Origin: Delftia sp. PS-11
GTDB lineage: Bacteria; Pseudomonadota; Gammaproteobacteria; Burkholderiales; Burkholderiaceae_C
Length of the DNA stretch: 64,000 nucleotides
NCBI RefSeq assembly: GCF_029870285.1
Contig: NZ_JACSYA010000001.1
Coordinates: 1 to 64,000 of the forward strand
Reading direction: 5' to 3'
In this document: one piece after another, positions 35,619 to 40,365 of the stretch
Numbering within the stretch: position 1 is the first letter of the stretch
Layout of the letters: each line of letters begins with the position of its first letter
Notes under the pieces: generated by a model
Seen by the model: only the letters and a program-made list of their open reading frames with translations
The model's database searches: none
Told to the model about the DNA's origin: nothing
Made by a program: the position numbers and the translations under genes

Positions 35619-37100
35619 TCAGGCCATTTTGCGGGAGAGATCCCACATGGCATCGACCAGCAGGTCGATATCGCGCGCGTCGTGCCACAGGTGGGTGGAG
35701 ACGCGCACGCCGTAGTGGTCCGCAGCAGCGCCGATCACCGCGAAGTTGGAGTTGCGGATGACGAAGCCCTGCGGATAGTCGCTGAGCATGCGCGCCACGA
35801 AGGTCGAGGACTTGGTGCCGTTCATCACGTCGTCCTTGTTCTGGAACGGGTTGAAGCAGGTCAGTGCCGACAGCAGCTTGGGATCGTCCTTGGGCGAATA
35901 CAGCGAATCGATGCCCCAGCGCTCGACGATCTTCTCCTTGAGGTAGGACGACAGTGTCAGGTCATAGGTTTCGATCTTCTTGCGGCCGATGCTGTCCCAC
36001 TGGGCGCAGGCCTGGGCCAGCGCCATGAACATGGGCGTGTGCACGCTGCCGCAGGCAGTGACCGATGCGGCGATGTCGAAGGTTTCCTTGGACGTGGTCG
36101 TCCGCTCCAGGGCCGGATAGGTGCTGGTGTGCACTGGATACCACTTGGGCAGGGGCAGCGGGTTGGAGGCGCGGATTTTATTGCGGATGATGAGAATGCC
36201 CGTCGAGCCCGGCCCGCACTGCCATTTGTGGCCTGCGCCCGACATGAAGTCCATGCCCAGGTCGGCATAGTTGTAGGCCATCATGCCCGGCAGGTGGGCG
36301 CCATCCACGATGCTGATCAGGCCATGCGCCCTGACCACGCCCATGAGGTCGGCGATCGGCAGCATGGTGCCGGTCTTGTAGGTGGGGGAAGACCACATCA
36401 TGGCGCGCACGCGCTTGCCCTGGGCCTTGAGCGCGCGGATGCGCTCGTCGAACAGGCTCACATAGGTGGCAGCCGTCTGGTTGTTGCCCACGGGCAGCGC
36501 GATGCGCGAGACCTCGATGCCATAGCGGTCCTGGGCGATCTTCAAAGGCGTGTCGCCGCCGCCATGCTCGTGGTTGGTGGTCACCACCACATCGCCGCGC
36601 TGCCAGTCCAGTCCCAGAATGGCATGGCACATGCCAGAGGAGGTGTTGGCCGAGAAGGCCAGCTCGTCGGCATCCACGCCAAAGCCCGGCGCCACCTGGC
36701 GGCGCAGGTCCAGCAGGTTGCTGTAGCCATTGCCTGAATCGGCCGCCTTCTTGCGGTTTTCGGCATCGAACAGGTCCAGCACCAGCTTGGGCATGGAGCC
36801 CGCCGTGCCGATGTTCATGTAAGTCTTCTCGGGCTTGAGGATGAACATGTTCTGCACATCGGTCCAGAAGGCCTCATCGCGCATGAGCTGCTCGCGCAGG
36901 GCCTGGGCCGTTGTCTGCGCATTGCCGCTGCCGCAGGCCGCCAGCAGCGGGCCCAGCGTGGCCGCGCCCGTGCCATAGCCCAGCATGCGCAGGAAGTCAC
37001 GGCGCTTGGAACTCCAGCGGGCCGGGTAGCCGCCCTCGGGGCTGGCTGCCACGGCAGGGGCGAGGCAAGGGGCGGCATCGGCAGGTTGTTGTACGTTCAT
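35619..37100 (-). CDS. Tat-exported class V aminotransferase-fold PLP enzyme, predicted lipoprotein
   Basis: A 493-residue PLP enzyme of the isopenicillin N epimerase-like class V aminotransferase family. The N-terminus has a twin-arginine signal (SSKRRDFLRMLGYGTG) and then a lipobox (PLLAACGSG), predicting export in folded, cofactor-loaded form and attachment as a lipoprotein. The PLP region shows MWSSPTYKTGTMLPI, SIVDGAHLPGMMAYN with the cofactor Asp, and the Schiff-base Lys in SGAGHKWQCGPGSTG. The nearest described relatives by layout are the Tat-exported PvdN-type enzymes of pyoverdine maturation, but no siderophore genes lie in the window. AGGAGCG precedes the ATG. It is 16 bases downstream of the lipoprotein RidA gene and surely in one operon with it. 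Substrate is unknown. Confidence 0.88.
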   Translation of the reverse strand: MNVQQPADAAPCLAPAVAASPEGGYPARWSSKRRDFLRMLGYGTGAATLGPLLAACGSGNAQTTAQALREQLMRDEAFWTDVQNMFILKPEKTYMNIGTAGSMPKLVLDLFDAENRKKAADSGNGYSNLLDLRRQVAPGFGVDADELAFSANTSSGMCHAILGLDWQRGDVVVTTNHEHGGGDTPLKIAQDRYGIEVSRIALPVGNNQTAATYVSLFDERIRALKAQGKRVRAMMWSSPTYKTGTMLPIADLMGVVRAHGLISIVDGAHLPGMMAYNYADLGMDFMSGAGHKWQCGPGSTGILIIRNKIRASNPLPLPKWYPVHTSTYPALERTTTSKETFDIAASVTACGSVHTPMFMALAQACAQWDSIGRKKIETYDLTLSSYLKEKIVERWGIDSLYSPKDDPKLLSALTCFNPFQNKDDVMNGTKSSTFVARMLSDYPQGFVIRNSNFAVIGAAADHYGVRVSTHLWHDARDIDLLVDAMWDLSRKMA

Positions 37101-37116
37101 GGGGCGCTCCTGGCAA

Positions 37117-37587
37117 TCAGCGGCGGCCCACAACGGCCGAGATTTCGATCTTCACGTCGCGCGGCAGGCGTGCGACTTCCACCGTGGCCCGCGCCGGGGC
37201 CGCCGTCTTGAAATACTCGCCATAGACCTTGTTCATGGCGGCGAACTCGTTGAGGTCCTTCATGAACACCGAGGTCGAGAGCACGTCCTCATAGGACAGC
37301 CCCTGCGAGCGCAGCTGGGCGCCGATATGCTCCAGCACGGTGCGGGTCTGCTCCTCGATGGTCGTGCCCTGGATGGCCGTGCCCTGGGCGTTCAGCGGCA
37401 GCATGCCAGAGAAATAAATGGTGCTGCCGTGCGCCACCATCTGCGAGTACGGGCCGATGGCTGGGGGGACCTGCGTGGTTGACAGCACCTCGCGCTTGTT
37501 CTGTGCAGCGCAGCCCGTCAGGACCACGGCCATGACGGCTGTGCCGCAGGCCAGCGCCATACGCATCGGACTCGATCGTTTCACCAT
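37117..37587 (-). CDS. RidA-family enamine/imine deaminase, predicted lipoprotein
   Basis: A 156-residue RidA protein with an export signal ending in a lipobox (AVMAVVLTGCAAQ). RidA proteins hydrolyse reactive enamines and imines released by PLP enzymes and are normally cytosolic; this one is predicted to be anchored outside the inner membrane. The fold motifs are complete: PPAIGPYSQMVAHGSTIYFSG, SVFMKDLNEFAAMNKVYGEYF, and PARATVEVARLPRDVKIEIS with the catalytic Arg and the late Glu, so it should be active. AGGAGG lies seven bases before ATG 37587. The next gene, 16 bases downstream, encodes an exported PLP enzyme, the natural source of RidA substrates. Confidence 0.9.
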   Translation of the reverse strand: MVKRSSPMRMALACGTAVMAVVLTGCAAQNKREVLSTTQVPPAIGPYSQMVAHGSTIYFSGMLPLNAQGTAIQGTTIEEQTRTVLEHIGAQLRSQGLSYEDVLSTSVFMKDLNEFAAMNKVYGEYFKTAAPARATVEVARLPRDVKIEISAVVGRR

Positions 37588-37791
37588 GACGTTTCCTCCT
37601 TTTGAAACCGGAAAACCAGAAAAAAGACGCAACACCCCATCGCCTGGAAAATGCTTCTCAGGCATTGAAAAAACAATGGGGCAATCAAAAAAACCCAGGA
37701 ATTTGAAAACCAGAATTCAGATCATTGGGTTGGCGAGGAAATTCTAGGCAGATATTTAGCCAGAAAGATCATCATTTTTCCCTTACGTACC

Positions 37792-37824
37792 ACTACGCAG
37801 AAAGATTTGCGCATGACTACGCAG
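37792..37824 (+). repeat. Direct repeat ACTACGCAG, 24 bp apart
   Basis: ACTACGCAG occurs at 37792-37800 and again at 37816-37824, between the RidA gene and the kinase operon. The spacing is a little over two helical turns, so it could be a pair of regulator sites, perhaps for the NarL-type regulator encoded nearby. Confidence 0.35.
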
Positions 37825-37885
37825 ATGATGGGCTGTAGTGCATTTCCCCCACCATACTCAATCTGGCGCATGGGAAGCCGCAGGT

Positions 37886-37902
37886 TGCACCACTGCGGTG
37901 CA
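37886..37902 (+). promoter_or_regulatory. NtrC-type enhancer site
   Basis: TGCACCACTGCGGTGCA has the 17-bp layout TGCACY-N5-GGTGCA of the NtrC (NRI) consensus, with both half-sites perfect; it extends to a 19-bp dyad, TTGCACC/GGTGCAA. Its centre lies about 87 bases before the transcription start predicted from the sigma-54 promoter downstream, a normal distance for an enhancer. Confidence 0.65.
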
Positions 37903-37954
37903 AATCACTGATACACACCCCTCGGCTCACGGTGAATCACGCTGTGCAACAGCA

Positions 37955-37970
37955 TGGCATGGAATCTGCT
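37955..37970 (+). promoter_or_regulatory. Sigma-54 (RpoN) promoter
   Basis: TGGCATGGAATCTGCT matches TGGCAC-N5-TTGCW at all but two defined positions and keeps the invariant GG and GC at exact spacing. The predicted start is about 37981 on the plus strand. With the upstream NtrC site this suggests nitrogen-limitation control of whatever follows. Confidence 0.6.
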
Positions 37971-37980
37971 TCAAACCTTC

Positions 37981-38106
37981 TGTCGAGAAAATAATGCACT
38001 GCGGCAGGAAAAAATCATATCCAGGGCGATGGCTTTTTAAATCAACCACTGCAACAGAATGTATCTCTCTATTTGGCGGGACGATTTTTGCTGCGCCATA
38101 TTTTTT
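37981..38106 (+). ncRNA. Possible nitrogen-regulated small RNA or long 5' leader
   Basis: From the predicted sigma-54 start to the next gene there are 280 bases without a convincing protein frame. A hairpin, ATTTGGCG (38071-38078) with CGCCATAT (38094-38101; one mismatch), is followed by a run of T, which could end a transcript of about 125 nt. If termination is incomplete the same RNA would be the leader of the kinase operon. Only position and structure support this. Confidence 0.25.
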
Positions 38107-38260
38107 CAAATATTTTTGATGGTTTTGAAGCCCCATGAAAAAGAAGGCAGGAGAAATATCCGGGCCGTCCCGCAGCACCCTCGGCAGCATCTGGACAAGC
38201 GTTCCGGCATGCCCTGCGCGAAACCCCTGTTGACAGAAATCAAGCCAAGGAAAACAAAGA

Positions 38261-39697
38261 GTGCCATCACTCTCCATGCAGGCCGCCATGCAACTTCCAC
38301 TGAAATTTGCGCTGCTGTCGATCCTGGCCATGCTGGCCGCCCTGGGCCTGGTCGCAGCCACCGTGCAGCACCAGACGCTGGCGCTCGCGCACCAGGAGCG
38401 TGAGCTGGTCGAGGCCGCCTACCTGCACAGCAAGGAAACCGAGCTGCGGCACTACGTGCAGCTTGCCAGCAGTGCGCTGGCACGCATCCAGGCCGGCGGC
38501 GAGGATACCCCTGCCCTGCAGCGGCTGGCGCTGGACACGCTGGCGCAGATGCGGTTTGGGGAAGACGGCTACTTTTTCGTCTATGACGGCGACGGCAAGG
38601 TGCTGCTGGACCCCTTGCAGATGGGGCTGGCGGGCGTGGACCTGTGCGATCCGGGCAGCCCCGCCAGCGCCGGGCCCGCCAACCGCATCCTCGACAAGGC
38701 GCGCAGCGGCGGCGGCATCGTGCACTACAACTGGCACAAGCCTTCGTCCCAGCGCATGGTCGACAAGCTGGGCTATGTCACCACGGTGCCCGCCTGGGGC
38801 TGGTCGCTGGGCACGGGCCTGTATCTGGACGATGTGCAGGAGGCGCTGCGCAAGATCGACGAAAGCGCGCAGGCCAATATCGAAGCCACGCGCTGGCGCA
38901 TCCTGGGGATTGCCGCGCTGGGTATCGTGCTGATCGGCGTGGCGGGCATGGCCCTGTACCTCAGCGACCACCGGATATCGAGCAGCAAGCTGCAGCAGCT
39001 GGCCCAGCGCGTCGTGCGCTCGCAGGAAGAAGAGCGCACGCGCGTGGCGCGCGAGCTGCATGACGGCGTGGTGCAGGTGCTGGTGTCGTCGAAATTCCTG
39101 CTCGAAACCGCGCAGGCCCAGCTGCGCCAGCTGGCGCAGCAAACGCCCGGAGTCGTACCGCGCATGGTGGACCAGGGCCTGGAACGCATCAACCATGCGC
39201 TGCTGGAAATCCGCCGCGTCTCCCACGGGCTGCGCCCCGCACTGCTCGATGACCTGGGCCTGGCGCCCGCGCTGGCGCTGATGAGCCAGCAGATGCACAG
39301 CGACGGCGGCACGCACATGCGCTTTGCCACGCACGGCGAGGCACGCGCGCTGCCCGGCGGCCATGCCACGGCGCTGTTCCGTGTGGCCCAGGAGGCGGTG
39401 ATGAACGCGCAGATGCATGCGCAGGCCGCCCGCATCGAGGTGTCGCTGCACTTCCAGCGCCGCCGCGTCATGCTCGAAGTGCACGACGACGGACAGGGCT
39501 TCGACATGGGGCGCGTGCAGCGCGACGGCCAGGGCGGCATCGGCCTGCGCAATATGCGCGAGCGCATAGAAGGGCTGGGCGGCAGGCTGAACATCCACTC
39601 CGGCCGGCAAGGCACGCGCCTGATCGCCACACTGCCGCTGGAGGCAGATGCCACGGCATCACCATCCCACACCGAACTGGCACAGGCGGCCCTATGA
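38261..39697 (+). CDS. Cache-domain sensor histidine kinase of the NarX/UhpB (HisKA_3) type
   Basis: A 478-residue kinase: first membrane helix (FALLSILAMLAALGLVAATV), a single-Cache-type periplasmic domain (about 40-215, with MRFGEDGYFFVYDGDGKVLL and GYVTTVPAWGWSLGTGLYLD), second helix (ILGIAALGIVLIGVAGMALY), and HisKA_3 with the phospho-acceptor in RTRVARELHDGVVQVLV. The HATPase part includes VAQEAVMNAQMHAQA and GQGGIGLRNMRERIEGLGG. GTG 38261 has AAGGA upstream; ATG 38276 and 38288 are alternatives. It is coupled by an ATGA overlap to a NarL-type regulator and preceded by the NtrC/sigma-54 elements. Cache domains bind small ligands such as organic acids or amino acids; the ligand is unknown. 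Confidence 0.92.
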   Translation: MPSLSMQAAMQLPLKFALLSILAMLAALGLVAATVQHQTLALAHQERELVEAAYLHSKETELRHYVQLASSALARIQAGGEDTPALQRLALDTLAQMRFGEDGYFFVYDGDGKVLLDPLQMGLAGVDLCDPGSPASAGPANRILDKARSGGGIVHYNWHKPSSQRMVDKLGYVTTVPAWGWSLGTGLYLDDVQEALRKIDESAQANIEATRWRILGIAALGIVLIGVAGMALYLSDHRISSSKLQQLAQRVVRSQEEERTRVARELHDGVVQVLVSSKFLLETAQAQLRQLAQQTPGVVPRMVDQGLERINHALLEIRRVSHGLRPALLDDLGLAPALALMSQQMHSDGGTHMRFATHGEARALPGGHATALFRVAQEAVMNAQMHAQAARIEVSLHFQRRRVMLEVHDDGQGFDMGRVQRDGQGGIGLRNMRERIEGLGGRLNIHSGRQGTRLIATLPLEADATASPSHTELAQAAL

Positions 39698-40365
39698 CCC
39701 AAGCCATACGCATCCTTCTGGTGGACGACCACCCTCTCGTGCGCGACGGCGTGTCCATGCGCCTGCAGGCCACGGAACATCTGCGCGTCGCGGGCGAGGC
39801 CGCCAGCCTGGCCGAAGCGCTGGCGCTGGCGGGGCCACTGGCGCCCGATATCGTGCTCACCGACATCCGCATGCCTGGCGCCAGCGGCATTGACCTTGCG
39901 GCACGGTTCCGCGAGCAGCACCCGCTGGTGCGCGTGCTGGTGCTGTCCATGCACGAGGACCCGGAGTATGTGCGCCGCGCCGTGGCCCTGGGCGCGCGCG
40001 GCTATGTGCTCAAGGATGCGCCGGCCCAGCAGCTCATCGAAGCCATCGAGACAGTGCATCGTGGCGGCCACTACTTCAGCCCTGGCCTGCGCCCCGTGGC
40101 AGAGGCGCCCCTGCCCGCGCCCGGCAGGGCCCTGACACCACGCGAGGCCAGCGTGCTGCAGTGGGTGGCCGAAGGCCGCTCGAACAAGGAAATCGCCGCC
40201 CTGATGGGCACCTCGGTGCGCACCGTGGAGACCCACCGCCTGCACCTGCGCCGCAAGCTGCGCATCGACGGCCAGGCGGCCTTCATCAAGTACGCCGTGG
40301 ACCACGCCGATCTGCTGACCGGCGCACGGCAGGCTCCTGTCAGTGCGTGTGCGCCGCCCCGCTGA
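39694..40365 (+). CDS. NarL/LuxR-type response regulator
   Basis: A 223-residue regulator with a receiver domain (ILLVDDHPLVRDGV; phospho-Asp in IVLTDIRMPGASGIDLA; YVLKDAPAQQLIEAI) and a C-terminal LuxR helix-turn-helix (LTPREASVLQWVAEGRSNKE, then GTSVRTVETHRLHLRRKL). It overlaps the kinase gene by four bases (ATGA), so it is its partner. Its last 26 bases overlap the converging ZIP transporter gene. The paired ACTACGCAG sequences in the upstream intergenic region are candidate sites for it. Confidence 0.94.
   Translation: MTQAIRILLVDDHPLVRDGVSMRLQATEHLRVAGEAASLAEALALAGPLAPDIVLTDIRMPGASGIDLAARFREQHPLVRVLVLSMHEDPEYVRRAVALGARGYVLKDAPAQQLIEAIETVHRGGHYFSPGLRPVAEAPLPAPGRALTPREASVLQWVAEGRSNKEIAALMGTSVRTVETHRLHLRRKLRIDGQAAFIKYAVDHADLLTGARQAPVSACAPPR

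Follow-up and report, generated by a model that had tools for sequence, protein, structure and literature searches.

Can a pyridoxal 5′-phosphate (PLP) enzyme and the RidA protein that clears its reactive imines work together outside the inner membrane? The question is raised by two genes of Delftia sp. PS-11 that lie in a stretch of 64,000 nucleotides (contig NZ_JACSYA010000001.1, positions 1 to 64,000; hereafter the window) and encode a class V PLP enzyme and a RidA, both with predicted export signals. RidA, a textbook case of metabolite damage control, is normally regarded as a protein of the cytosol or of organelles, where it protects PLP enzymes. Judging from the sequences, we consider it probable, at roughly 60%, that the two proteins form an exported pair: outside the inner membrane, the PLP enzyme would release a reactive 2-imino acid, which RidA would hydrolyze to the 2-oxoacid.

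The two genes share the reverse strand, and their features have the following coordinates in the window.
37117 to 37587, reverse strand: ridA-like gene, transcribed first (ATG at 37587, stop ending at 37117; 156 residues; RidA/YjgF archetype)
37510 to 37587, reverse strand: RidA signal peptide with lipobox LTGC, predicted lipidated Cys26 and Ala at +2, read from the sequence
37101 to 37116, reverse strand: gap of 16 bp separating ridA from the PLP-enzyme gene
35619 to 37100, reverse strand: class V (fold type I) PLP-enzyme gene with a predicted twin-arginine translocation (Tat) signal (ATG at 37100, stop ending at 35619; 493 residues)
36936 to 37100, reverse strand: predicted Tat signal KRRDFLRM and lipobox LAAC of the PLP enzyme, predicted lipidated Cys56 and Gly at +2, read from the sequence
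36225 to 36227, reverse strand: codon of Lys292 (in GHKW), the predicted PLP Schiff-base lysine, placed by alignment

The 16-bp spacing agrees with what the original prediction had given, and AAGGAGG lies upstream of the ridA ATG. With the lipobox cut site marked by a slash, the RidA N-terminus reads MVKRSSPMRMALACGTAVMAVVLTGC/A and the N-terminal signal of the PLP enzyme SKRRDFLRM...GPLLAAC/G. The PLP enzyme is most closely related to proteins from Delftia (97% identity to D. tsuruhatensis over 406 tree columns), and the names given to its homologues range over class V aminotransferase, isopenicillin-N epimerase and selenocysteine lyase.

Family membership was tested with Pfam and NCBIfam models at their curated cut-offs. 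The RidA scored 121.3 bits against PF01042 (cut-off 27.3) and 137.8 bits against TIGR00004, the Rid family detoxifying hydrolase (cut-off 106.25). Its Arg133 and Glu148, which we take to be Arg105 and Glu120 of the E. coli protein, were invariant in 30 of 30 aligned homologues, a chosen set of paired and unpaired RidAs, in keeping with the earlier claim that the catalytic Arg and Glu are retained. For the PLP enzyme, the sole Pfam or NCBIfam match above cut-off was PF00266, a general family (73.7 bits, cut-off 21.5). Lys292, invariant in a chosen set of 63 aligned homologues, corresponds in the alignment to the lysine of the GHKW motif in C-DES, an L-cysteine/L-cystine C-S lyase (1elq, 1n31) with 21–22% identity to the enzyme. 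The predicted structure (mean predicted local distance difference test score, pLDDT, 85.7) has the PvdN/C-DES/SufS fold, so that the two marks looked for in a comparison with C-DES, this fold and a PLP lysine within GHKW, are both present. Sequence profiles ranked cystine C-S lyase and Egt2 above PvdN, with Egt2 as a distant match (4e-26). The activity of both C-DES and Egt2 is β-elimination; C-DES is not known to carry an export signal or to work with a RidA. Directly behind the PLP lysine, in the motif KWQC (residues 292–295), Gln294 and Cys295 were invariant in the 63 aligned sequences, whereas C-DES has FA at these positions.

Membership in three better-characterized groups was rejected. 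The enzyme scored 69.8 bits against the PvdN model (cut-off 650), 51 bits against the SufS cysteine desulfurase model (cut-off 475.1) and, for the EgtE/Egt2 C-S lyases, 32.6 bits against the EgtE model (cut-off 400). A search for the SufS catalytic Cys loop found no Cys in residues 449–493, presumably the place where that residue would be expected. The original prediction had named PvdN-type enzymes as known Tat-exported PLP enzymes; the enzyme of the window shares their Tat motif and fold but not their family membership.

The distribution of the two genes was examined in a family sample of 399 genomes with a profile of each protein (E up to 1e-80 for the PLP enzyme and up to 1e-42 for RidA). 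The PLP enzyme was found in 31 genomes and this type of RidA in 33; both occurred in 30, and the PLP enzyme stood alone in one (G499). In all 30 two-gene genomes the genes were adjacent on the same strand, with 60–269 bp between the domain matches, which led us to reject chance neighborhood. RidA came first in 26 of these pairs and the PLP enzyme in 4. The Fisher p value for co-occurrence was ∼1e-40 over the 399 genomes, uncorrected for kinship. The spread is patchy, with the PLP enzyme in 18 of the 141 genera of the family sample, and among five genomes of one genus three had both genes and two had neither; this patchiness favors the view that the two genes were gained or lost together more than once.

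A RidA-based search of named genomes found the pair at 38 of 80 loci. The betaproteobacterial ones belong to Comamonadaceae, Oxalobacteraceae (Massilia, Noviherbaspirillum), Zoogloeaceae (Cognatazoarcus) and Sphaerotilaceae (Rubrivivax, Roseateles), and the alphaproteobacterial ones to Methylopila, Chelatococcus, Hansschlegelia and Chenggangzhangella, which we take to be Rhizobiales. The PLP gene is frame-split in the record of two of the 38 loci (L013 and L046), and a further locus, L016, shows overlapping stop-to-stop frames whose coordinates place RidA first. In an order sample, the PLP profile (E up to 1e-40) matched 6 of 300 genomes, with RidA adjacent only in the source genome (G000) and G133. 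A phylum sample of 294 genomes held the PLP enzyme in five (paired in G000 and G133, unpaired in G917, G920 and G962) and the RidA type in 17, with no pair beyond those two. The original prediction had named a pairing seen only in this strain as grounds for its dismissal; the pairing is conserved across Beta- and Alphaproteobacteria, in both gene orders.

Further evidence came from trees of the two proteins. The RidA tree (79 rows and 125 columns, 15 of 94 sequences having been omitted as near-copies or short) contained many open forks, and only its 100/100 split was used; the PLP tree kept 52 rows after removal of copies and of L013 and L046. Most Burkholderiales pairs have their RidAs on one side of the split. 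At four loci (L049, L103, L108 and L109) the PLP enzymes fall inside the main Burkholderiales group, 72–78% identical to that of the window, their RidAs lie across the split from the main group, and the PLP gene comes first. At three others (L034, L036 and L040) main-clade RidAs stand beside PLP enzymes that are 33–34% identical to the window's. On the strength of these trees, RidA partners have been exchanged between lineages. That different RidAs came to neighbor different Tat PLP enzymes strongly supports a functional link, and we rejected vertical inheritance of a single frozen pair as the sole cause of adjacency because the order flips and the RidA lineages are exchanged.

Export signals were judged by motif and hydropathy at 66 paired loci, pooled from two collections in which some species occur twice. 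Three copies of the window were left out, as was L013, whose PLP match is split between frames; L046, with a match split likewise, was kept. The twin arginine of the PLP enzyme was present at all 66 loci, and R33–R34 were invariant in the 63 aligned homologues; the NCBIfam Tat-signal domain scored 16.4, just below its cut-off of 16.7. Together with PF00266 and the motif KRRDFLRM, the twin arginines substantiate the earlier description of a Tat-signal class V PLP enzyme. A lipobox was found in the PLP enzyme at 50 of the 66 loci and in RidA at ∼58 (60 pattern matches, two of which, L043 and L108, were judged false by eye). Each paired RidA listed has a hydrophobic segment (mean hydropathy of at least 2.0 over 11 residues), and in those lacking a lipobox this segment is accompanied by a mostly AxA-type end. 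Export is thus, as far as sequence motifs tell, the conserved trait of the pair and the lipid anchor a variable one, and the claim that both proteins are lipoproteins fits the window, where both carry a lipobox, but not every pair.

The residue at +2 after the lipid-bearing Cys was Ala or Ser in 58 of the 60 RidA pattern matches and Gly or Ser in 50 of 50 PLP enzymes, and Asp was never found there in either protein. Under the E. coli rule, Asp at +2 governs lipoprotein sorting and a non-Asp residue directs the protein to the outer membrane; because +2 is never Asp, both proteins are predicted to be outer-membrane-bound. The source genome has five PF01042 matches, and no signal peptide was seen upstream of the domain in the four proteins other than the paired RidA. 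The paired RidA is also the sole match to the RidA profile at E ≤ 1e-30 in this genome. The remaining four are divergent, so that a standard cytosolic RidA may be missing from this genome.

Taken together, these data suggest a sequence of events. PLP would be inserted in the cytoplasm and the enzyme exported via Tat in its folded state, as reported for PvdN. PvdN leaves the cytoplasm already folded and carrying its PLP (PMC6206403), a precedent that establishes PLP chemistry beyond the inner membrane. Both proteins would be lipid-anchored and sorted to the outer membrane, where they would meet on one membrane face. There the PLP enzyme would release a 2-imino acid from an amino acid. RidA is described as acting on imines from PLP enzymes such as threonine dehydratase (PMC4433059); because RidA clears PLP-made imines and its Arg and Glu are kept here, the PLP partner probably releases an imino acid. 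By analogy with C-DES and Egt2, we infer that the simplest imine source among class V enzymes is β-elimination of the C-S lyase type, which would yield 2-aminoacrylate/2-iminopropionate. RidA would then hydrolyze the 2-imino acid to a 2-oxoacid and ammonia, the oxoacid being pyruvate if β-elimination applies. In this way RidA would protect exported PLP enzymes, its partner included, and complete the reaction.

Upstream of the pair, a two-component system is encoded in the divergent direction.
37588 to 38260, no strand assigned: intergenic region, defined by gene layout, separating the ridA–PLP pair from the divergent two-component genes
38261 to 39697, forward strand: MctS-like sensor histidine kinase with a Cache domain, divergent from the pair (sCache_2, 90.5 bits; HisKA_3; HATPase_c)
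39694 to 40365, forward strand: MctR-like, LuxR-type response regulator (Response_reg, GerE)

The intergenic region likely holds the promoters of both divergent units; a promoter and terminator scan gave counts close to those of shuffled sequence, with no excess. A Cache kinase and a LuxR-type regulator adjoin 23 of the 38 paired loci, and L049 (Cognatazoarcus), which has the different RidA and the flipped order, also has a divergent Cache kinase. The combination resembles MctS/MctR of Rhizobium, which regulate a permease that takes alanine, pyruvate and lactate (PMC9100948), but no mctP-like permease was present among the eight neighbors of the pair that we scanned with Pfam. The likeness is weak evidence, by analogy, for a pyruvate-type product. 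The kinase would respond to a small carboxylate, such as the reaction product. A fuller version of the proposal, which we put forward only tentatively, is that an outer-membrane-anchored PLP lyase degrades external cystine or Cys S-conjugates while the co-anchored RidA converts 2-aminoacrylate to pyruvate, which is sensed by the Cache kinase. If this version is true, no earlier PLP-enzyme/RidA pair would have worked entirely outside the cytoplasm. Clustering of neighbors over 56 loci found no conserved third operon enzyme. Besides the pair, the clusters comprised antisense frames, genes of close kin only, two-component genes, a generic ABC-ATPase group and the TctC-type binding proteins, whose family is large there; only the two-component genes were counted.

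Other explanations of the pair were weighed. The PLP enzyme could act on an exported peptide or siderophore, tailoring its amino group by decarboxylation or transamination like PvdN or PtaA, with RidA resolving an imine on the large substrate. We regard this as unlikely in view of the PvdN score, which is 69.8 bits where 650 are called for; moreover, no peptide-synthetase or siderophore gene occurs among the eight neighbors, to which the scan was confined, and the accessible part of PMC6206403 does not mention RidA with PvdN. The RidA itself might instead be a periplasmic holdase-like protector or small-ligand binder, with shared control by the Cache two-component system as the sole reason for the pairing. 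A Drosophila relative of RidA is reported to have chaperone activity in vitro (PMC4433059), and the sensor pair adjoins 23 of 38 loci, but the invariance of the catalytic Arg and Glu in all 30 aligned RidAs, and the persistence of the pairing where no two-component system is visible (15 of 38) and where the order is flipped, make this explanation quite improbable. We likewise give little credence to a mainly sensory module, in which the exported PLP enzyme and RidA would convert an external amino acid to a sensor ligand and nutrition and damage control would be secondary. The divergent Cache kinase of the 23 loci, Cognatazoarcus included, speaks for such a role, as do two RidA-less relatives of the phylum sample that adjoin SBP_bac_3 and GGDEF-EAL proteins; the 15 paired loci that show no such kinase speak against it.

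Several observations weigh against the imine-releasing exported pair that we favor. The fold comparison ranked PvdN first, and PvdN catalyzes a different reaction. At 15 of the 38 paired loci the two-component system was not seen in the DNA examined (which for L043 included little upstream DNA), and the window's own kinase and regulator fell below the cut-offs of the MctS model (373 bits against 700, or 53%) and the MctR model (212 bits against 300, or 71%). The lipid anchor is not universal among pairs. For 42 of the 80 RidA loci there was no PLP match in the flanking DNA examined, which in L028 and L056 ends close to ridA. In the family sample, G529, G557 and G595 have an above-threshold RidA and no PLP enzyme, and RidAs that bear a signal occur without the PLP enzyme in L033, L035, L037, L038, the Chlorobiaceae L048 and L050, G529 and others. 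The reverse is also seen: the Tat-signal PLP homologues of G917, G920 and G962 (34–36% identity) have no adjoining RidA match, the Tat-like G499 enzyme (32%) has no RidA neighbor, and the relatives in G131, G169 and G263 (29–32%) have no RidA in the DNA examined. The G962 contig ends ∼580 bases past the PLP gene, and G920 possesses both proteins, encoded far apart. A relative in G038 (28% identity) also showed no RidA in the DNA examined, and no Tat motif was found at the predicted starts of the G131 and G263 enzymes. Because Tat-signal relatives occur without an adjoining RidA, not every member of the wider PLP family needs one. As judged from these genomes, the PLP–RidA tie holds for the beta/alpha branch sampled, not for all relatives.

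The pair can be set beside known systems. With PvdN, the Tat-exported enzyme of pyoverdine tailoring (22% identity), the PLP enzyme has the Tat signal in common, whereas the lipobox and the exported RidA partner are features of the window's pair, and no pyoverdine gene occurs among the eight neighbors. The RidA resembles the RidA/YjgF enamine/imine deaminases in its TIGR00004 score, its Arg and Glu and the position of its gene beside that of a PLP enzyme, and differs from the usual members in its predicted signal peptide and lipobox. Similar in arrangement are the modules of L-amino acid oxidase (LAAO) and RidA, a periplasmic complex in Chlamydomonas and the lao-cccA-ridA operon in Gluconacetobacter, outlined in PMC5053998. 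There, too, the imine is made outside the inner membrane (by prediction in Gluconacetobacter) and a RidA partner is present, but the imine maker is a flavin adenine dinucleotide (FAD) oxidase rather than a PLP enzyme, and the passages of PMC5053998 on these modules report no lipoprotein RidA. No FAD amine oxidase gene was found among the eight neighbors scanned.

Neither a lipoprotein RidA nor a Tat PLP enzyme with RidA appeared among the titles and abstract openings listed from an open-access library, which does not establish absence from print. The statement that no described lipoprotein RidA partner was known is consistent with that search but needs narrowing, since an extracytoplasmic imine maker with RidA is already known from LAAO (PMC5053998); any novelty would lie in the PLP-enzyme version. 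A conserved pair with export signals implies that reactive enamines or imines may be a source of stress beyond the inner membrane as well, with a dedicated enzyme to counter them there. As a removable system of two genes, it allows imine source and clean-up to be separated by deletion. It also provides a way of finding what an uncharacterized family of Tat-signal PLP enzymes acts on and raises the question of how periplasmic PLP enzymes keep or lose their cofactor.

Some relatives outside the pair have neighborhoods of their own. The RidA-less Tat PLP genes of G920 (L144:3134-7859) and G917 (L145:3047-7983) adjoin genes for SBP_bac_3 solute-binding and GGDEF-EAL proteins, which suggests a sensing context. 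At L123:3219-5480, L124:3272-5691 and L125:4808-6951, PLP relatives of 29–32% identity lie beside a Peptidase C26-like gene, identified by Pfam in L123 and by look in the others. Among unpaired RidAs, that of G595 (L120:3-2757) apparently forms the end of a 549-residue open frame whose start resembles an M20 amidohydrolase, with no signal seen, and the gene beside this fusion resembles an ammonia-lyase by look. G824, one of 14 RidA-only genomes of the phylum sample, has no PLP match and no signal peptide on its RidA. In the two Chlorobiaceae loci (L048:841-5090 and L050:854-4966), a signal-bearing RidA gene lies upstream of two ATP-binding cassette (ABC) genes, the first of which in L048 is identified as CydD by its NCBIfam score (648 bits, cut-off 435). 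CydDC exports cysteine and glutathione to the periplasm, and this RidA, too, may be exported and have a role connected with periplasmic thiols. Eight further RidAs, from Aminicenantes, Saccharicenans and one other bacterium (L058, L063, L066, L067, L069, L070, L072 and L073), have a hydrophobic N-terminal extension and mostly a second Met directly before the domain; in L058 the RidA gene comes after an M20 peptidase gene.
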